From an uncultured bacterium (GTDB taxonomy: Bacteria; Bacillota; Clostridia; Lachnospirales; Lachnospiraceae): DNA of 64,000 bases. This document shows positions 1,448 to 64,000 of the stretch, in pieces. The notes beneath the pieces were generated by a model, which saw only the letters and a list, made by a program, of their open reading frames with translations, was not told the origin of the DNA and did no database searches. Positions within the stretch are counted from its first letter, which is position 1, and every line of letters starts with the position of its first letter. A program made the translations under genes and the position numbers. The DNA is taken from the NCBI GenBank assembly GCA_945949875.1, contig CAMFGH010000001.1:1-64000 (forward strand). The letters are read 5' to 3'.

Positions 1448-3339
1448 ACTTCACGGAAATCTCCATCAATAATATCATCTTCCGGCTGACCTGCACCTGC
1501 ATTCTGTGCACCTGCATTCTGTGCACCTGTAAATCCGCTCATGTCTGGACCTGCTCCCTGGCCGCCCTGAGCTGCCTGCATATTTTCATACATCTTTGTG
1601 AACAGTGCCTGCGCATCATTGGTCAGTTTTTCTTTTGCTGCTTTCAGTGCATCCAGATCGCTGTCAGACATTTCCTGATCTTTTGTTCTGTCCAGAATAT
1701 CTTTTACTGCTTTGATATCATCTTCTACAGTAGCTTTCTGGGAAGCATCAATCTTATCGCCTACTTCATTTAAAGCTTTTTCTGTCTGGAATACAAATGC
1801 ATCTGCATCGTTTCTTGCATCAATCGCTTCTTTTCTCTTCTTATCCTGTGCTTCGAATTCTGCAGCTTCTTTTACTGCCTTTTCGATATCTGCATCAGAC
1901 ATATTAGAGCCTGCTGTAATGGTAATATGCTGCTCTTTTCCTGTGCCCAGATCTTTTGCAGATACGTTTACGATACCGTTTGCATCGATATCGAAAGTAA
2001 CTTCGATCTGTGGAACACCTCTCATTGCCGGTGGGATACCATCCAGTCTGAACTGTCCAAGAGATTTATTATCTTTCGCAAACTGTCTTTCACCCTGTAA
2101 TACGTTGATATCTACTGCTGTCTGGTTATCTGCTGCAGTAGAGAATACCTGACTCTTCTTGGTAGGGATCGTTGTATTTCTTTCGATCAGTTTTGTAGCA
2201 ACACCACCCATGGTTTCAATAGACAGGGAAAGTGGAGTTACATCCAGAAGAAGGATATCGCCTGCACCTGCATCGCCGGCAAGTTTACCACCCTGGATAG
2301 AAGCACCGATTGCAACACATTCATCCGGGTTCAGGGATTTATTAGGCTCTTTGCCGGTTAACTGTCTTACTTTATCCTGTACAGCCGGAATACGTGTGGA
2401 ACCACCAACCAGCAGTACCTTGGACAGATCTGCATTGGTCAGACCGGCATCTTTCATAGCGTTCTGAACAGGAATAGCTGTTCTTTCTACTAAATCATGT
2501 GTAAGTTCATCAAATTTTGCTCTGGTCAGGTTCATGTCAAAGTGTTTTGGACCTTCTGCAGTAGCTGTGATGAATGGTAAGTTAATATTGGTTGTTGTAG
2601 CGGAAGATAATTCTTTCTTTGCTTTTTCTGCTGCTTCTTTTAATCTCTGAAGAGCCATCTTATCGGTAGAAAGATCTACACCTTCTGCTGCCTTGAATTC
2701 TCTGATCATGTAATCTGTAACAGCCTGGTCAAAGTCATCACCACCTAAGTGAGTATCACCGTTTGTGGAAAGAACTTCAATAACACCATCACCGATTTCG
2801 ATAATGGAAACATCAAATGTACCACCGCCTAAGTCGTATACCATGATCTTCTGTTCATTTTCATTATCAAGACCATATGCAAGAGCTGCTGCTGTAGGCT
2901 CGTTGATGATACGTTTTACATCAAGACCTGCGATCTTACCTGCATCCTTTGTAGCCTGACGCTGAGCATCGTTGAAATATGCAGGAACTGTGATAACAGC
3001 TTCTGTTACTTTTTCACCCAGATAGCTTTCTGCATCTGCTTTCAGTTTCTGAAGAATCATTGCGGAAATTTCCTGTGGAGAATATTTCTTGTCATCAATG
3101 GTTCTCTTCTTGTCTGTACCCATATCTCTTTTAATGGAGATAACTGTTTTTTCTGCATTGGTAACTGCCTGACGTTTTGCAGGTTCACCAACTAATCTTT
3201 CACCTGTTTTTGTAAACGCAACAACAGATGGTGTTGTTCTTGCGCCTTCTGTATTTGCGATAACAGTAGGTTTTCCACCTTCCATAACTGCTACACAACT
3301 GTTTGTTGTTCCTAAGTCGATACCAATAATCTTGCTCAT
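1444..3339 (-). CDS. dnaK: Chaperone DnaK (Hsp70)
   Basis: [22 protein letters not shown] start and full Hsp70 sequence; C-terminal [14 protein letters not shown] repeat. Confidence 0.99.
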
Positions 3340-3381
3340 AATGAAGCCTCCTATTTTAAAAAATCTTTATTAACGTGTCAC

Positions 3382-4143
3382 TTACGGTACCACAGCTACC
3401 ATGCTGTGTCTTACCACTGTATCCCGATACATGTAACCTTTCAGCATTTCCTGAACCACATATCCGGATTCATATTCTTCACTCTCCATCTGCATCACTG
3501 CATTATGGAAGTTAGGATCAAATTCTTTTCCAACCGCTTCAATGGGTGTTACACCCAGATTTTCAAGTTCTGTCTGAAGCTGTTTGTAGATCAGCTGCAT
3601 TCCTTCTGCAAAAGCATTTCCCTTTTCCTCTTCCGGAATGGTTGCCAAACCTCTTTCAAAATTATCTACAACAGGTAAAATCTTTTCAATCACACTTTTT
3701 GCACCTGTTTCAAACATGGCTGCTTTTTCTTTTTCGGAACGTTTCCGGAAGTTTTCAAATTCTGCCATCTGACGTTTTACCCGGTCTTCCAGGTCTGTTA
3801 CTTTTTCCTGCAGCGCTTCTACCTTTTTATCTTCTTTGGATTTTTTCTTAAATCCCTTTTTGGATTTGCCATCCTTATCGGCTTCCTCCGCATCTTCCGC
3901 TTCCGCTTTTTCTTCTGCTTTAGCCTCTTCTTCTGTTTCAGCCCCTTCATCTGCAGATTCGCAGGCCTCTTCCTGAATGGTTTCTTCTTTGCTTTCCTCT
4001 GCCGAGGTCTTTGTTTCTTCCGAAGTTCCTTCGGATACTTTCTCCACAGTTTCTTCGGATAGTGTTTCTTCCGAAACTGCTTCGCTGTTTTCCAACATTT
4101 CGTCTATCTCTGTATGATTCTGCTGTTCAGACACGCTCATCAC
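3382..4143 (-). CDS. grpE: Nucleotide exchange factor GrpE with a long acidic N-terminal extension
   Basis: GrpE core (RQMAEFENFRKRSEKEK...LPVVDNFERGL...GKEFDPNFHNAVMQ); operon position. Confidence 0.96.
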   Translation of the reverse strand: MMSVSEQQNHTEIDEMLENSEAVSEETLSEETVEKVSEGTSEETKTSAEESKEETIQEEACESADEGAETEEEAKAEEKAEAEDAEEADKDGKSKKGFKKKSKEDKKVEALQEKVTDLEDRVKRQMAEFENFRKRSEKEKAAMFETGAKSVIEKILPVVDNFERGLATIPEEEKGNAFAEGMQLIYKQLQTELENLGVTPIEAVGKEFDPNFHNAVMQMESEEYESGYVVQEMLKGYMYRDTVVRHSMVAVVP

Positions 4144-10529: not shown

Positions 10530-12470
10530 TTAATAATACGTAAAAATACTGTACAGCGCACAGATATTTGTTGCGATCACTAACCCCATCTGATATTTCA
10601 AGATCAGCTCACTCTTTGCCGGTACCCGTATTTTTTTCAGTCCCATGGCCAAAAGCGGCAGTAGCGGAATCAGATAACGTCCCTGAAATCCCTCGATCAT
10701 GGGGCTTTGGAGTGCTGTCCATTGTACATAAAGGGTCGTCAGTGTGATTCCAAACAGCAGAAAGAACAGGACAATGCTCCAGACTCTATGGCTGGTTTTC
10801 AGGAAGTTTTCTTCCTTTTCATCCAGTATGATCATTTCCATACCCAGAACGATCAGATACAACAGAACAAACAACAGGCTGGTGTATACGTTTAGTACAC
10901 ACATTTTGGCTCCCACCATGGTACCAAGCCAGTCCACCAGCTTATCTCCGCAGGTTCTGGTCACCACCAGCAGGTAAGATATCGGATGGGTCAAAATATA
11001 TTTCACCTGTGCCGGGCTGTCCACGCCTGCACGGAACTCTATCATATATCCAAATGCAATCAGCATCCAGCCCAGATTCAGCACGGTACTTCCCACGCAA
11101 AGTCCGATTTTATACCATTTTCCTTTTTTTCCTTCCCAGAGTTTCTCCGCCGGAATCAAAAGCACCATAAAACATAATGGCAGGTAGACCACCTTACAAA
11201 GTGCTACCAGCGCACAGCTGATTCCCAGAAGCAGCCGCTCCTTTTTCCCAGCCATTCCCTCATTCTTCATGATCTTTAAAATCTGGGCCAACAGGAAAAA
11301 TGCCGCCGCATTGATAAAAGCATCACTGGAAAGAGACACCATCTGCTGTAAATACATGGGCATACAGCATGCCAGCAGCAGAAACCGCTTTCCAAAAGGA
11401 ATCCATTTCACTGCATAATAACATAACAGGCCACATGCCAGGAAATTGAAAAAACGGGCAAGATAAAATACCATTACGGTTCGGCGGGTAAGCAGCCTTC
11501 CCACCAGGCAGCCCAGCGCCTGTGGTAGATAGCTTACCGGTGAATACAGTGCCTGTGTGGGATTGGAGTAAATGGATTTTGCTCTTGGCGCCATTTCCCA
11601 ATCCAGGTTATTCCGTATCATTTCATAATCGATACCCTTCAGGCTCACCATATCTTCCGGAATGAGCCCGGCAGGCAGGGTAGACAGCCCATCTCCCACA
11701 TAGCTTTTAGGAGTTAAAAGATCCCCCTGGGAAATCTCAAAGCTTCTATAATAATGTCCACTTTCATCCGGAACCTGAAGCATCGGAATCGCGATAAAAT
11801 ATCCGGTTCCAATGACTGCCAGAACCAGGAGCAGTACCTTCTCCGGTGCAAGCTTTGTAACAAATATACTGACCAGACAGAACAGAAGCAGAACTGCAAG
11901 CGCCATAAAAATATGCCGGTTCCCCAGTTTTGGGGTACAAAGCGTCATCTTCAGAACCTGATCCTCCTGTATCTTGTCATTGGCAGTAAAGGTTCCGAAA
12001 AGCTCTCCTCCCGGCTGATCCTTAAGGGAAGTACAGACACTGACATGCTTTTCGCTGTCTCCGGTCTCCACAACCATATCCAGAAGGTACGTCTCACCCG
12101 ACACCCCCGTCAGTTTTTCATCCAACAGGAAGATCTCCGGCATATCCGATTGAAATTCTTCGGTTCCCCGATCCCAGCTCTGAATAACCCTCTGATCCTT
12201 TTCATCGATCAGCTGAATGTGCACCTGATCTTTACATATGGTATCCCGGGTATAGAACTGCAGGGAAAAACCTAAAAGCTCGTCCTCTGCCGGTATCAGC
12301 TGCTGCTGATATGTTTTATGGGAATCGGTGGGAAACATTCCATCCAGACTCAGCAGCCGGGTCTGGTTATAACGCTGTGTCTCCAATCCCTTCATATAAT
12401 ATGCTGCAAAAATTACAAGTACAAAAACAAATATATAATATAACCATTTTGGTGCTTTCAAATTTTTCAT
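10530..12470 (-). CDS. DUF2142-family membrane protein
   Basis: Multi-TM protein with the IPMLQVPDESGHYYRSFEISQG motif and C-terminal QGRYLIPLLPLL. Confidence 0.8.
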   Translation of the reverse strand: MKNLKAPKWLYYIFVFVLVIFAAYYMKGLETQRYNQTRLLSLDGMFPTDSHKTYQQQLIPAEDELLGFSLQFYTRDTICKDQVHIQLIDEKDQRVIQSWDRGTEEFQSDMPEIFLLDEKLTGVSGETYLLDMVVETGDSEKHVSVCTSLKDQPGGELFGTFTANDKIQEDQVLKMTLCTPKLGNRHIFMALAVLLLFCLVSIFVTKLAPEKVLLLVLAVIGTGYFIAIPMLQVPDESGHYYRSFEISQGDLLTPKSYVGDGLSTLPAGLIPEDMVSLKGIDYEMIRNNLDWEMAPRAKSIYSNPTQALYSPVSYLPQALGCLVGRLLTRRTVMVFYLARFFNFLACGLLCYYAVKWIPFGKRFLLLACCMPMYLQQMVSLSSDAFINAAAFFLLAQILKIMKNEGMAGKKERLLLGISCALVALCKVVYLPLCFMVLLIPAEKLWEGKKGKWYKIGLCVGSTVLNLGWMLIAFGYMIEFRAGVDSPAQVKYILTHPISYLLVVTRTCGDKLVDWLGTMVGAKMCVLNVYTSLLFVLLYLIVLGMEMIILDEKEENFLKTSHRVWSIVLFFLLFGITLTTLYVQWTALQSPMIEGFQGRYLIPLLPLLAMGLKKIRVPAKSELILKYQMGLVIATNICALYSIFTYY

Positions 12471-12614
12471 GACTAACCTTTTCTACAAAAATTTCCCTTT
12501 TCTTTTCCTTTACATCATATCCTATTTATGATGCATTGTATATCAAAACCCATCGTTTTTTCCCGATGGATCACCTTCTTTTTTCCATTACCATACCTTT
12601 ACTTTCCGGTGCAA

Positions 12615-12655
12615 AACTTTACAAATTCCTTATTTTTCTTTATACTGAGACATTA
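12615..12655 (+). promoter_or_regulatory. Sigma-A-like promoter of the acyltransferase gene
   Basis: TTTACA-17-TATACT upstream of the ATG at 12675. Confidence 0.6.
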
Positions 12656-14223: not shown

Positions 14224-16148
14224 TAGGTTCTCCCGGTATAAAGCTGATAGTATTTCCCTTTTTCTTCAAGGAGCTGCTTATGTGTCCCTCTTTCTATAAT
14301 ACTACCGTTTTCCAGTACCATAATGCAATCACTATTCTTTACTGTACTGAGACGATGGGCTATGACAAATGTGGTTCGTCCTTTCATCAGAGAGTCCATT
14401 CCCTGTTGTACCAGCATTTCTGTTCTGGTATCAATGCTGGAGGTTGCCTCATCCAGAATCAGTACAGGTGGGTCCGCCACTGCTGCTCTGGCAATGGCCA
14501 AGAGCTGTCTTTGTCCCTGGGAAAGATTCGCTCCATCTCCTGTCAGCATGGTCTCATATCCTTCCGGCAGTCTTGTGATAAATCCATGGGCATTGGCCAG
14601 CTTTGCTGCCGCAATACATTCCTCATCCGTGGCGTCCAGTTTTCCATACCGAATGTTTTCCATAACCGTTCCGGTAAATAAATGAGTATCCTGCAACACA
14701 ATTCCAAGAGATCTTCTGAGGTCTGCTTTTTTAATCTTATTGATATTGATTCCATCATAGCGGATTTTTCCATCCTGAATATCATAAAATCGATTGATCA
14801 GATTGGTAATGGTGGTCTTACCGGCGCCGGTACTTCCTACAAAAGCAATCTTCTGTCCCGGTGTAGCAAACATTTTCACATTGTGAAGTACAATCTTTTC
14901 ATCTGTATATCCAAAATCTACATCATCGAATACCACATCTCCGGTCAGCTCTGTATAGCTGACACTGCCATCTGCCTGATGGGGATGTTTCCAGGCCCAC
15001 ATTCCGGTTCGCTCTTTACACTCTATAATATTGCCATTCTCATCTTTTTTTGCATGGACCAGTGTAACATATCCTTCATCCACTTCCGGTTCTTCATCCA
15101 TCAGCTTGAACACACGGTCAGCGCCGGCAAGTGCCATAATCACCGAATTCAGCTGCTGACTCACCTGCGCTATGGGCATATTAAAGTTTTTGCTTAAGGT
15201 GAGAAAAGATACCAAAACACCAATGGTAATACCACCAAAGCCTTTGATGGCAAAAAGAGCTCCTATAATGGCACATATGACATAACTGATGTTTCCCATC
15301 TGTCCGGTAAGAGGCATTAAAATATTGGCAAATTTATTGGCATTATTTGCACTGTCCCTGAGCTGTTCATTCAGTTCTTTAAATCCCTGCAGACTTGCTT
15401 CTTCGTGACAGAACACCTTAACTACTTTCTGCCCACTCATCATTTCCTCGATATATCCGTTTACTGCACCCAAATCCTGCTGTTGTTTCATAAAATAGCT
15501 GCCGGACTTTTTGACCACTTTCCCTGATATGAGCAAAATTAATCCCACCATCAGAAGGGAAAGGACAGTCAGCGGAACGCTTAAGTATATCATACTGATA
15601 AGCACAGTTATCAGGGTAAATACACTGTTTAGAACCTGTGTCATACTGGTACCAATCATTTGACGGAGTGTATCCACATCATTGGTATATACTGACATAA
15701 TATCGCCATGAGCATGAGTATCAAAATATTTAATAGGCAAAGACTCCATGTGGGTAAATAACCTGACACGAATGTCATGCATGGTACCCTGGCTGACTCT
15801 TACCATAATCTGGCTTTGGACAAAAGAGCATAGTACCCCGAAAGCGTAAATTGCTGCCATACAGAAGAGCGCTGATTTCAGTGGTCCGAAATCCGGATTT
15901 TTCACTCCGATCAGGGGCGTAATATAATCATCTATGAGACTCTGAATAAACAGGGTCCCCAGCGAAGAGGCAACTGCTGCTCCGAGAATACATAAGATCA
16001 CAATAACCACAGCCACTCCATATCGTTTCATAATGATCGAGGCCAGTCTTTTAAAAATTTCTCTTTGATTTTCTATCTTCGGTCTTGGGCCCTGCATATT
16101 ATTGTGGGGGCCAGGACCTTTCACTACCCTTACCTTTTCAGAAGCCAT
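14223..16148 (-). CDS. ABC transporter permease/ATP-binding protein (exporter half-transporter)
   Basis: Walker A GSTGAGKTT, signature LSQGQRQ, Walker B VLILDEATSSID; start at MASEKVRVVKG after GGAGGTGG. Confidence 0.95.
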   Translation of the reverse strand: MASEKVRVVKGPGPHNNMQGPRPKIENQREIFKRLASIIMKRYGVAVVIVILCILGAAVASSLGTLFIQSLIDDYITPLIGVKNPDFGPLKSALFCMAAIYAFGVLCSFVQSQIMVRVSQGTMHDIRVRLFTHMESLPIKYFDTHAHGDIMSVYTNDVDTLRQMIGTSMTQVLNSVFTLITVLISMIYLSVPLTVLSLLMVGLILLISGKVVKKSGSYFMKQQQDLGAVNGYIEEMMSGQKVVKVFCHEEASLQGFKELNEQLRDSANNANKFANILMPLTGQMGNISYVICAIIGALFAIKGFGGITIGVLVSFLTLSKNFNMPIAQVSQQLNSVIMALAGADRVFKLMDEEPEVDEGYVTLVHAKKDENGNIIECKERTGMWAWKHPHQADGSVSYTELTGDVVFDDVDFGYTDEKIVLHNVKMFATPGQKIAFVGSTGAGKTTITNLINRFYDIQDGKIRYDGININKIKKADLRRSLGIVLQDTHLFTGTVMENIRYGKLDATDEECIAAAKLANAHGFITRLPEGYETMLTGDGANLSQGQRQLLAIARAAVADPPVLILDEATSSIDTRTEMLVQQGMDSLMKGRTTFVIAHRLSTVKNSDCIMVLENGSIIERGTHKQLLEEKGKYYQLYTGRT

Positions 16149-31127: not shown

Positions 31128-31137
31128 TGCAAAAAGA

Positions 31138-31460
31138 ACTGTCTCTTTCACGAAGTACATTTTGTAAAGTGGCTTTTTTTGTAGATTTGCACGGAAAATC
31201 TGTAGGAAGTTTTTTCAGCCTGCAAAATATTATCCCAGAGGCTTCTTTATAGATAGTATGTTTTTCCACGGATGAACAGCGGGAGTGGTGTGTCACTTTT
31301 CATACAGACACTGAGGAAAAATATACTTAATCGAAAAGAAAGAAGCCTCTGGGATAAAAAATATTTTGCCGCTGATAAAAACTTCCTATAGATTCTCCGT
31401 GCAAAACAAATAAAAATAAGGCGGCCGCTTTACGAAATGTTCTTCGTGAAAGCGACAGCC
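31138..31460. repeat. Element A: ~323-bp long imperfect palindrome (nested inverted repeats) between convergent genes
   Basis: Left arm CTGTCTCTTTCACGAAGTACATTTTGTAAAGTGGC...TTGCACGGAAAATCTGTAGGAAGTTTTT...CCCAGAGGCTTCTTT is mirrored by AAAGAAGCCTCTGGG...AAAAACTTCCTATAGATTCTCCGTGCAA...GCCGCTTTACGAAATGTTCTTCGTGAAAGCGACAG. Confidence 0.9.
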
Positions 31461-31506
31461 CTTTTATGTTCTGTCTTAGCAATGCTGTCTTTTGTACGGA
31501 TTAAGT

Positions 31507-38499: not shown

Positions 38500-41058
38500 T
38501 TATTCTTCTGCCCTGGAATCCTTTTCCTCTTCTTCCGACTCAGAAGGTGTTTCCTGGCCTTTTTCCTGAGCATCTTCCTGGCCTGTTTCCTGCTGCTCTT
38601 CCGATACTGTATCCACCTGTTCCGGGCTTTCCTGCTGCATATTACCCTGTATCCGGTTTTCCACCTCTGTATATGGGACAAAAGAGGAATCTGCCTGTTT
38701 CATGACTGCCTCTTTCGGTACACCGGAAAACCGGCCTACACTTCCCTGATATCTTCCATCCTGATAAGGATTACTCTGTGGAATCCACTGTCCTCCCACC
38801 TGCTGTGGCGACTGTTGATATGGTGCCTGCTGCTGTGGCATCTGCTGATACGGTGCCTGCTGCTGTGGCATCTGCTGATACGGTGCCTGCTGCTGTGGTG
38901 GCTGTTGCTGCGGCATCGGTTGCTGAGGTATCTGCTGTACCGGCTTCTCCTCCGGTTTCTCTTCCGGCTCAGGCAGTCCCTTTTCAGCACGATATATCTT
39001 CATAAACTCTTTTCCTGTAATCGTTTCTTTTTCAATCAGGAACTCAGCCAGCTTATCCATCAGGCTTCTGTTTTCTTTCAAAAGTCTCTTTGCTTCTTTA
39101 TAGCTGTCCTTTAAGATCTTCATGACTTCTGTATCGATGTCCGCTGCGGTTTCATCGCTGCAGTTCATAACAGTTCTGCCATCCAGATATTTGCTTTCCA
39201 CAGACTCTAATCCGATCAGGCCGAACTTTTTACTCATACCAAACTGGGTCACCATAGATCTGGCAATATTGGTTGCTTTTTCGATATCATTGGATGCGCC
39301 TGTTGTAACCGTATCAAAGACGATTTCTTCTGCAGCACGTCCGGCAAGCAAACCAACCAGCATATCACGAAGCTCTGCTTCTGTATTCAGAAACTTCTCT
39401 TCTTCCGGTACCTGCATCACATATCCCAGCGCACCCATGGTACGGGGTACAATGGTGATTTTCTGCACCGGTTCTGAATTTTTCTGTAATGCGGCTACCA
39501 AAGCATGGCCTACTTCATGATAAGAAACGATTCGGCGTTCCTCTTTGCTCATGATCCGGTCTTTCTTCTCTTTTCCTACCAGAACCTGTTCTACTGCATC
39601 AAACAGATCTTTCTGGCTGACACAGCGGCGTCCAAATTTCACTGCATTGATGGCTGCTTCATTGATCATATTTGCAAGATCAGAACCTACCGCACCGCTT
39701 GTTGCAAGTGCAATTTCATGCAGGTCAACGGTTTCATCCATCAAAACATCTTTTGCATGTACTTTGAGAATCTCTTCACGGCCTTTCAGATCCGGTTTAT
39801 CCACTATAATTCGTCTGTCAAATCGTCCCGGTCTTAAAAGTGCTTTATCCAGGATTTCCGGTCTGTTGGTTGCCGCAAGGATGATAATACCTTTTTTCCC
39901 GTCAAAACCATCCATTTCCGAAAGGAGCTGATTCAGGGTCTGCTCTCTTTCCTCATTTCCACCACCGTATTTTGAATCACGGCTACGTCCAATCGCGTCG
40001 ATTTCATCGATAAAAACAATACAAGGTGCATTCTTTTCTGCTTCCTTAAACAAGTCTCTTACTCTGGAAGCACCTACACCTACATAAAGCTCAATAAAAT
40101 CGGAACCGGCTAACGAGAAGAACGGAACACCGGCTTCTCCCGCTACCGCCTTAGCAAGTAAGGTCTTACCTGTTCCGGGAGGTCCTACCAGAAGAGCGCC
40201 CTTTGGAAGCTTTGCTCCGATCTGGGAATATTTTCCCGGATTATGCAGAAAGTCTACCACCTCTACCAGAGATTCTTTTGCTTCATCCTCACCTGCTACA
40301 TCCCGGAATGTAACACCGGTCTCCTTCTGGACATACACCTTGGCATTACTCTTTCCAACGCCCATGACTCCGCCGCCTTTTGACATCTTACGGAATAAAA
40401 AGCTAAGCAAAAACCACATGAGAGCAATAGGAAGCACAACTGTAACCAGTATGGAAATGATACTGTCAATCAGCGTCGTGGTCTGTCCTTTGATTTCTAC
40501 ATTATGCTCCAGAAGCCTTGCCGTCAGATCAGGGTCTTCAACCCGGATCGTATAATAGGTCTGTGTAGGCAGACCAAACATGGTATATAAGGTCTGCTGC
40601 GTGGCACTTTCAGCACCTTCTCCGCCTTCTCCCACATTTGGTTTTTCTGTTTTTAATTCAAAGCTAAGTCTGTCTGAACTTTCAATGACACTGGCTACTT
40701 TATCCGCTTCAACCAATTTCACAAATTCACTGTATGGTACCTCACTGTTACTTCCACTCATGGTATTTACAAAAAGGCTGATACAAAACAGGGAAATGAT
40801 GGCTGCCAACATCAGAAGAACAATGTTCTGCTTTTTAGGGTCCTGATTATTTCTTCCCGGATCTCCCTGCCCGTTTCCATTATTTCCATTACCATTGTTA
40901 TAACCATTCCCGTTATTATAACCGTTTCCGTTGTTATAACCGTTTCCATTATTATAGCTGTTGCTATTGTTATAATTGTTTCCGTTATCCATTTTATCGG
41001 TATGTTCTAAAAAAGAACCTGCTCCTTTCAATACAAATACATTTGCGTCATATTTCAT
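38500..41058 (-). CDS. ftsH: ATP-dependent zinc metalloprotease FtsH with low-complexity N- and C-terminal extensions (start may be the internal MDNGNNYNN Met)
   Basis: Walker [12 protein letters not shown] region, HEVGH zinc site; Asn/Gly/Tyr repeats at the N-terminus and Gln/Pro/Tyr repeats at the C-terminus. Confidence 0.97.
38815..38910. repeat. 30-bp tandem repeat in ftsH encoding ([10 protein letters not shown])n
   Basis: ggtgcctgctgctgtggcatctgctgatac repeated nearly identically. Confidence 0.9.
40878..40990. repeat. 18-bp-type tandem repeat in the ftsH 5' end encoding (GYNNGN)n
   Basis: Repeated ...ccgttattataaccgtttccgttgttataaccgtttcc...; peptide [23 protein letters not shown]. 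Confidence 0.9.
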
Positions 41059-61745: not shown

Positions 61746-63164
61746 ATGAGAAAAACGCTATATCTGAAATTTATTGTTGCATATCTGATTTTCGGTTTTT
61801 TTGGATTTGTTGTAGTGGCAACCTTCGTTTCCAATATGACCCTGGATCACGTAAAGAAAGAAAGGTCGGAGGCCCTTTATAAGGAGGCAACCCAGATCGC
61901 CAATACCTACGCTATGGATCTGTATCGTAACCAGACTTCTCTGGATACAGTACAAAATCAGCTTGGGTCACTGGCTGCTTTTACCGATTCCATAATCTGG
62001 ATCATCAATCCATCCGGTCGTATGGTGCTTAACTCAGCCTCTGCCTTAAGTCCTGATCAGGAGATTATCATTGAAAACTTTGATCCCACGATCACCGGCG
62101 GTTCCTACTATACAATCGGTACTTTCTTTGATTCCTTTGATCATGAAGTAATGAGCGTTTTTGCTCCTATTACCTACAACTTCCGTGTACAGGGCTATGT
62201 TGTCCTGCACACCTCCATGGATTCCATCCGTGAGGAATCCAACAGCATTTTAAATATTTCCTATATCATGCTGATCATCCTCTTTGTTCTGTCCCTGATC
62301 ATTCTGATTTTCTTTACGGAGATTGTGTATATGCCCCTTCGTAAGATCACAGAAGCAACCGAACAGTACGCTTCCGGAAATATGCACTATGAGTTTTCGG
62401 TAGAAAGTGAAGATGAAATGGGCTATCTGGCAGCTTCTCTGAATTACATGGCCAGTGAAATTGCCCGTGCAGAAGATAACCAGAAAAAATTTGTAGCCAA
62501 TGTATCCCATGACTTCCGCTCTCCCCTTACTTCCATCCGGGGTTATCTGGAGGCTATGATCGATGGCACCATTCCTCCGGAAATGCATGAAAAATATTTG
62601 GGAATTGTGCTAAACGAAACGGATCGTCTGACCAAACTGACCAACTCTCTGCTTACTCTGAATAACCTGAATACCAAGGGAGTTATCTTAGAGAAATCCG
62701 TATTTGATTTAAACAAAGTGATTCGAAACACCGCAGCTTCCTTCGAAGGCACCTGCCGGAAGAAATCTATTTCTATTGAGCTGATTCTCACCGGCGAGGA
62801 AATGCCGGTACTTGCGGATCTGGAAAAAATCCAGCAGGTTCTATACAACCTGCTGGATAATGCCATAAAGTTCAGTCACCATGACTCTATCATCAAAATC
62901 GAAACAACTGAAAAGAAAAATAAGATTTTCGTTTCCGTGAAAGACAGCGGTATCGGTATTCCGAAAGAAGACTTAAAACTCATCTGGGACCGTTTTTACA
63001 AGTCCGATCTGTCTCGTGGAAAGGATAAAAAAGGAACCGGCCTTGGTCTTTCCATTACAAAAGAGATCATTCATGCTCACGAAGAGCATATTAACGTAAT
63101 CAGCACCGTAGGCGTAGGTACCGAATTCATCTTCTCCCTGCCGATTGTAGAGGATGAAGATTAA
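61746..63164 (+). CDS. Sensor histidine kinase (HAMP, HisKA, HATPase_c)
   Basis: FVANVSHDFRSPLTSIRGYLEAM, LLDNAIKFS, DSGIGIPKEDLKLIWDRFYKSD, GTGLGLSITKEII. Confidence 0.96.
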   Translation: MRKTLYLKFIVAYLIFGFFGFVVVATFVSNMTLDHVKKERSEALYKEATQIANTYAMDLYRNQTSLDTVQNQLGSLAAFTDSIIWIINPSGRMVLNSASALSPDQEIIIENFDPTITGGSYYTIGTFFDSFDHEVMSVFAPITYNFRVQGYVVLHTSMDSIREESNSILNISYIMLIILFVLSLIILIFFTEIVYMPLRKITEATEQYASGNMHYEFSVESEDEMGYLAASLNYMASEIARAEDNQKKFVANVSHDFRSPLTSIRGYLEAMIDGTIPPEMHEKYLGIVLNETDRLTKLTNSLLTLNNLNTKGVILEKSVFDLNKVIRNTAASFEGTCRKKSISIELILTGEEMPVLADLEKIQQVLYNLLDNAIKFSHHDSIIKIETTEKKNKIFVSVKDSGIGIPKEDLKLIWDRFYKSDLSRGKDKKGTGLGLSITKEIIHAHEEHINVISTVGVGTEFIFSLPIVEDED

Positions 63165-63165
63165 G

Positions 63166-63681
63166 AAAGGGAGTTCTCTTTAGCGAATGAGATTTTCTAA
63201 AGCGGAAGCGTGCCTTTTCAGGAGGGGCCGGGCTACAGGATGTTTTTTCTGCTCGCAAAATATATCCCAGGAGCTTCTTTCTGGATAGTATGTTTTTCCT
63301 CGGATGAACAACCGGGAGAACTTGTTCCTTTTTACACAGACACTGGGGAAAAAATCCTAAGATTGCTCACTGCAGAACACAAAATCGTGATAAAAGCCGG
63401 CATTTCAAACGCGACTAACGTCTTAAACGGGTGAAATGCCGGCTTACGTTTTGTTTATCTGCAGTGGCAATCTCTAGACGGATTTTTGCCAACAGTGTCT
63501 GATGCAAAAAGAACAAGTATCTCCCGGGTGTACAGCTTTGGAAAAATATACTTTATCGTAAAGAAAGAAGCTCCTGGGATAAAAATATTTTGCCGCAGAA
63601 AAAACATCCTGTAGCCCGGCCCCTCCTGAAAAGGCACGCTTCCGCTTCAGGAAATCTCATTCCATTAAAGAGAGCTCCCTT
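63166..63681. repeat. Element B: ~516-bp near-perfect giant palindrome between convergent genes, MITE/foldback-like
   Basis: Left arm AAGGGAGTTCTCTTTAGCGAATGAGATTTTCTAAAGCGGAAGCGTGCCTTTTCAGGAGGGGCCGGGCTACAGGATGTTTTTTCTGC matches the reverse complement of 63601-63681 with few differences; symmetry continues to the apex near 63420. Confidence 0.93.
63394..63445. terminator. Apical 14-bp perfect hairpin of element B
   Basis: AAGCCGGCATTTCA...TGAAATGCCGGCTT. Confidence 0.8.
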
Positions 63682-64000
63682 TCCAACGAAGACGATGCAA
63701 TTCCCCTTCCATCTGCATACTGGAGAAATGATTTTGTCTCAGGGCTTCATACAGTACGATTGCCACGGAATTGGATAAATTCAGGGATCTGATTTCCGGC
63801 AGCATTGGTATCCGGATACAATCTTCCTCGTGATCTACCAAAATTTCTTCCGGTATGCCGGCACTTTCTTTTCCAAACATAATGAAATCGTCCGGTCCAA
63901 AGGATACCTCTGCATAGCTTCGCTTTGCCTTCGTTGTTGCCAGCCAGACTTTGGCTCCCGGATGTTTTTCCATGAACTCCTGATAATTCATATAACGAGT
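63665..64000 (-). CDS. trmL: tRNA (cytidine(34)-2'-O)-methyltransferase TrmL-like (SpoU family), partial: 5' end beyond the window
   Basis: YQEFMEKHPGAKVWLATTKAKRSYAEV...MFGKESAGIPEEIL...RIPMLPEIRSLNLSNSVAIVLYEALRQ; expected N-terminal SpoU region is missing at the window edge. Confidence 0.88.
   Translation of the reverse strand, partial: TRYMNYQEFMEKHPGAKVWLATTKAKRSYAEVSFGPDDFIMFGKESAGIPEEILVDHEEDCIRIPMLPEIRSLNLSNSVAIVLYEALRQNHFSSMQMEGELHRLRWKGSSL

Follow-up and report, generated by a model that had tools for sequence, protein, structure and literature searches.

MITEs, ERIC and Correia/NEMIS elements are non-coding, multi-copy elements with inverted terminal parts, which lie next to genes. 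Another well-described group comprises the palindromic REP, BIME and REPIN repeats, which carry GTAG or CGTC tags and are linked to RAYTs (PMC3733652, PMC3116915). Template switching both creates and repairs stems (PMC8794818), and inversion of the spacer is one of its known products when it occurs between inverted repeats (PMC8604942). The locus described here is probably one member of family A, a set of dispersed non-coding repeats that form giant hairpins behind genes and whose arms are kept matching by DNA copying. It is best read as an oversized variant of the dispersed palindromic repeats.

The window, i.e. the whole stretch of 64,000 nucleotides that was analyzed, belongs to a gut-type bacterium of the Lachnospiraceae. 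Folding of positions 63150-63700 by RNAfold resulted in a single hairpin of -342.3 kcal/mol, while shuffled sequences yielded -144.9 kcal/mol (sd 5.9; z -33.5). The paired span extends from 63165 to 63683 (519 nt, 224 base pairs), which confirmed the giant palindrome reported in an earlier note and placed its ends, given there as 63166 and 63681, right within 2 bases. That it fills the whole gap between a histidine kinase gene and trmL was only partly true. The kinase gene (HAMP, HisKA, HATPase_c; 61746-63164, plus strand) indeed abuts the hairpin directly, since its stop codon ends at 63164, the base before the first paired one. The element is, however, not purely intergenic, as it takes in the end of trmL (SpoU methylase family; minus strand, 63665-64000 and beyond the window to approximately 64168). 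Read from the right, this gene stops at 63665 within the outer inverted repeat and overlaps the hairpin by 19 bases, so that the otherwise non-coding element supplies the codons for the final residues of its product, KGSSL.

From the outside to the inside, the 5′ arm consists of a copy-specific segment T5 (63165-63196, plus strand), which pairs with the outer 3′ arm and in other copies resembles a short terminator hairpin, and a likewise copy-specific segment X (63197-63242, plus strand), which perfectly matches its partner X′ (63605-63647, minus strand). The outer 3′ segment T3 (63648-63683, minus strand) includes the trmL stop codon. Between the arms lies a core (63243-63604, plus strand) common to other copies, with fixed asymmetric bulges and identities of 74-92% (mean 83%) among the full copies. 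Its inner 138 nt, the head (63348-63485, plus strand), on which covariance model R2 was built, is present in 10 intact copies in the own genome and also in another genus; it encloses an apical hairpin AAGCCGGCATTTCA...TGAAATGCCGGCTT (63394-63445, plus strand), which in copy C20 stands alone behind a gene. The outer 68-nt arms are 97% complementary and the whole arms 92% alike across 241 aligned positions. The asymmetric bulges of the 519-nt hairpin recur in further copies.

A search of the parent genome, a metagenome-type assembly of 2.76 Mb in 163 contigs (G000), revealed that the palindrome is not unique: 36 matching pieces were found at approximately 15-18 places, corresponding to about 15 dispersed copies. 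A second one (W31k, 31129-31469) resides in the window itself; it lacks the apical part and is flanked by putative genes for a sodium:alanine symporter-like and an HPr-like protein. Contigs C6/C22 and C117/C76 were recognized as pairs whose ends meet inside one split copy, because the unique X arms match. The copies differ in size in a nested manner. C20 comprises the apex alone, C42, C95, C26 and C7b the apex plus the inner stem, and W63k (the hairpin at 63165-63683), C13, C38, C7a, C105 and C94 are full-size copies, while the apex is deleted in W31k, C64 and C6b. C95 carries its inner part in the opposite orientation to its outer part. The core is 83% identical among the full copies, whereas X segments of different copies share only 52% identity (46% after shuffling). 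Each X nevertheless matches its own partner by 85% across the whole segment and, in most copies, perfectly or nearly so over 20-50 bp beside the core. The X segment of the hairpin at trmL was found nowhere else in 1.8 Mb of the own genome searched. In several copies, each T segment can form a local terminator-like hairpin. T belongs to the arms, since within one copy the loops of T5 and T3 are reverse complements of each other; the idea that T represents a large separate family was not borne out, as blast and a strict regex search for lone T hairpins turned up few. At another locus (L107, ~661-851; ~20661-20851 of contig C15), we observed a 191-nt hairpin with terminator-like outer segments, a long inner stem and an A7 loop, resembling a family A element devoid of the core.

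By a hand tally, every copy with clear neighbours is faced by at least one gene 3′ end. Approximately 8 of 14 copies are situated between convergent genes and none between divergent promoters, and the nearest stop codon is mostly 0-20 nt away. At the trmL/kinase junctions of L192, L193, L195 and L204 the element is absent and the two stop codons overlap or lie within about 20 bases of each other; the divergence of these empty junctions is too great to reveal a target-site duplication. The same junction is occupied by a giant hairpin of different sequence (family D) in Lachnospiraceae bacterium SIG338 (G002) and, in L251 and L267, by one of family F. Since hairpins of families A, D and F reside there, it looks like a hotspot for giant hairpins. 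A second family D copy of G002 lies near the HPr gene beside which W31k resides in the own genome. A possible role of the hairpins is that of bidirectional transcription terminators or of 3′-end RNase III sites. The terminator role is suggested by position only, as a simple terminator scan detected no intrinsic terminator within 63100-63750.

Outside the own genome, family A is rare. A blast search of 60 relatives yielded only matches of 28-31 nt, in G050 and G059. After a first covariance model (R1), whose RNAalifold structure was poor, had been replaced by model R2, a related head was identified in another genus (G118), and three species of that genus contained 60-80 matching places per genome. 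Altogether, heads were found in 2 of 397 genomes of the family by model R2 and, by blast, in relatives of the genus of G118. No match to the element was obtained in phage and plasmid collections, and the exact apical pattern was absent from genome-contig and viral-contig collections from which near records had been left out. No Rfam model matched the element; there were only below-threshold matches to models of long hairpins (miRNA, snoRNA). We did not find a description of the hairpin families in the open-access literature. In the three sister species, all comparable sites were occupied in each, a comparison biased by the choice of regions around copies. At these sites the copies thus appear stationary, and the recent mobility considered in the earlier note was not supported for the sister species examined.

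Besides family A, the own genome carries families B, C and F. Family B is a single 650-nt hairpin with 252 pairs (L112, ~15053-15701; contig C18), for which no relative was found in the DNA compared. To family C belong GGGGACGTTTCTTTTGTC... repeats, which precede a RAYT-like Y1 transposase gene (L189, C22:9469-9801; L114, L152, L167, L186, L092) and elsewhere make up the outer ends of hairpins of 340-440 nt. Family D, with five copies in G002 (L072-L076), follows the same plan as family A without any sequence match to it. The head of family F (CACGCTYTCGCTC...GCAGCGGTACTAAG...AAGTGCCGGCG), accompanied by copy-specific arms in L090, L153, L113, L144, L125, L188, L197, L251 and L267, is absent from Rfam, although 121 of the 299 Lachnospiraceae genomes sampled contain it; several of the copies examined combined the conserved head with long copy-specific arms, others contained little beyond the head. 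Arms duplicating coding sequence were sought in L376, with no such case, and in L383, where the indication was weak and was not counted. Two kinds of direct repeats were also encountered. Tandem 15-nt repeats (CTGCTGTGGCATCTG-like) at 38800-38949 of the window possibly encode a repetitive peptide, and repeats with TTACTGTA motifs in L096 (~12342-12632) and L113 (~3140-3390), common to L160, L168 and L169, do not constitute a giant hairpin.

Alignment of the 138-nt heads disclosed strong covariation, as sought in the earlier note: 18 of 54 pairs had changed on both sides, compared to 6.7 after shuffling and at most 4 after sliding. These data, together with the conserved asymmetric bulges of the head and the occurrence of multi-copy families of the same architecture in G002 and G118, could be read as the mark of a large structured non-coding RNA (or dsRNA) in which selection for the transcript preserves the pairs. 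If one transcribed strand were under selection, G-U mismatches should be favoured over A-C. Mismatches in the outer arms were G-U in 25 and A-C in 22 cases (p 0.77), and the one-sided changes between orthologous copies comprised 13 of each kind. Whole family A hairpins showed 77 G-U and 54 A-C mismatches, on a fold-derived alignment that itself favours G-U. Thus, pairing is not visibly kept through G-U intermediates, and nothing in the mismatches points to selection at the RNA level. The lack of an Rfam match and the persistence of apex-deleted (W31k, C64, C6b) and head-inverted copies also argue against a structured RNA. Of this proposal of the earlier note, the covarying pairs stood, while a selected RNA is decidedly unlikely.

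A different cause of the covariation is indicated by close relatives. Between orthologous copies of the sister species, the raw table contained 13 double Watson-Crick and 42 one-sided changes, or approximately 10 and 33 after removal of a duplicate comparison (about 43 changed pairs in all); the double-change counts are small and some pairs stem from the poorly aligned, partly inverted copies S1 and S6. By our estimate, far fewer than one double change would have arisen by independent mutation at these distances. In related families of other species, close relatives differed by concerted changes of several bases in both arms. In family F, one arm was replaced en bloc between L251 and L267, whose flanks are ~93.6% identical, and now matches the other arm. 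A 17-nt arm stretch is present on both sides (as reverse complement) in one of these genomes and on one side in the other, the direction of the change not being polarised. Inversion of the spacer between the arms was also found: the head is inverted between orthologous sites of two species (L356 vs L323), as is the inner part of C95 in the own genome. Double changes exceeding independent mutation without a G-U bias fit copying from arm to arm at the DNA level, and gene conversion between the arms, one of the explanations offered in the earlier note, is therefore well supported.

Two further explanations concern the way in which the element moved or assembled. An oversized REPIN transferred as single-stranded DNA by a Y1 transposase (RAYT or IS200/IS605) might be suspected, because a RAYT-like gene with repeats of its own on its flanks is present in the own genome and because that repeat family (C) builds hairpins of 340-440 nt too. 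No Y1 gene, however, lies beside any family A copy, and searches for Y1_Tnp drew no match in G118 (an estimated 100% complete, with 67 matching places), G002 or G430. Moreover, we noticed no resemblance in sequence between family A and family C. A RAYT mechanism is thus not supported for family A, and we regard it as quite improbable. Hairpin loops are the target of many bacterial elements, and a small core might have inserted into the loops of pre-existing, locus-specific palindromic terminators (T-X-X′-T′), which would then be the source of the variable outer arms. The runs of T and A bordering the core would agree with this course of events, and the hairpin of L107 has the appearance of such a terminator with an A7 loop and no core. 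L107 is, though, the single core-less case seen, and it would be unusual for every target to possess a near-perfect stem of 25-50 bp. At trmL/kinase, relatives are almost gapless, which argues against a prior palindrome there. Insertion into existing terminators is therefore unlikely. The chance that the palindrome is an assembly artefact (fold-back chimera) is practically negligible. Although the assembly is of the metagenome type in 163 contigs and some copies reside at contig ends, about 8% of positions differ between the arms, many copies occupy different loci, and orthologous copies recur at identical sites in species that were assembled separately. The element is real, repeated and no artefact, and there is no evidence that an RNA is under selection.

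According to the preferred reading, a dispersed hairpin repeat whose arms are matched by DNA copying, DNA synthesis would occasionally copy one arm from the other by template switching (quasipalindrome correction), so that the arms evolve in concert. Such copying could keep a very long palindrome near-perfect and, with no RNA being selected, produce covariation like that of an RNA; arm-to-arm exchange of this type may also flip the head. Within one genome, the copies resemble one another far more in the core than in the outer arms, a difference for which arm copying by itself does not account. Either the core spread recently and the arms were rebuilt locally, or the copies exchange cores by gene conversion. 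The head or core may once have spread as a non-autonomous element with the help of some enzyme, and insertion just behind stop codons would be tolerated because genes stay unbroken. The earlier suggestion of a foldback/MITE-like element is consistent with some 15 copies, the lack of coding capacity and relatives with an empty site, but neither a transposase beside the family A copies nor a target-site duplication or a recent insertion was detected. A bolder proposal, conceivable though doubtful, is that the palindromes build themselves: seeded by a conserved head, fold-back DNA synthesis would copy the adjacent host DNA to the opposite side, each insertion thereby growing locus-specific, near-perfect arms until the whole gap between two genes becomes one hairpin, and this would have happened in independent families across the Lachnospiraceae.

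Such long palindromes should be unstable in bacteria, yet stems of 100-220 pairs are retained by several families at numerous sites in each genome. These families offer a natural test bed for asking whether long hairpins can be both built and preserved by template switching. They also caution against taking strong covariation by itself as proof of a functional RNA. The head of family F, being so widespread and missing from Rfam, will recur in RNA-discovery screens.

Compared with known systems, family A resembles REP, BIME and REPIN repeats in being composed of dispersed, non-coding intergenic palindromes with hairpin potential, and its coexistence with the RAYT-linked family C recalls their setting. 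Unlike REP sequences (20-40 bp), it is more than 10 times longer, has no linked transposase and possesses locus-specific arms. Like intrinsic terminators between convergent genes, the copies lie behind stop codons, with terminator-hairpin-like outer T segments in several of them, but they are far longer than termination needs. With MITEs, ERIC and Correia/NEMIS elements, family A shares the non-coding, multi-copy and gene-adjacent nature. In MITEs, the conserved parts are the ends and a target duplication and a parent transposase are expected, whereas in family A neither of the latter was found, the middle is conserved and the ends vary, the outer arms being copy-specific in the own genome. 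Homogenisation of the arms, inversion of the spacer and multi-base compensatory changes, finally, are features shared with the correction of quasipalindromes by template switching (PMC8794818, PMC8604942, PMC7202029). This process has been described for short inverted repeats, whereas here it would act on stems of approximately 220 pairs in many dispersed copies.
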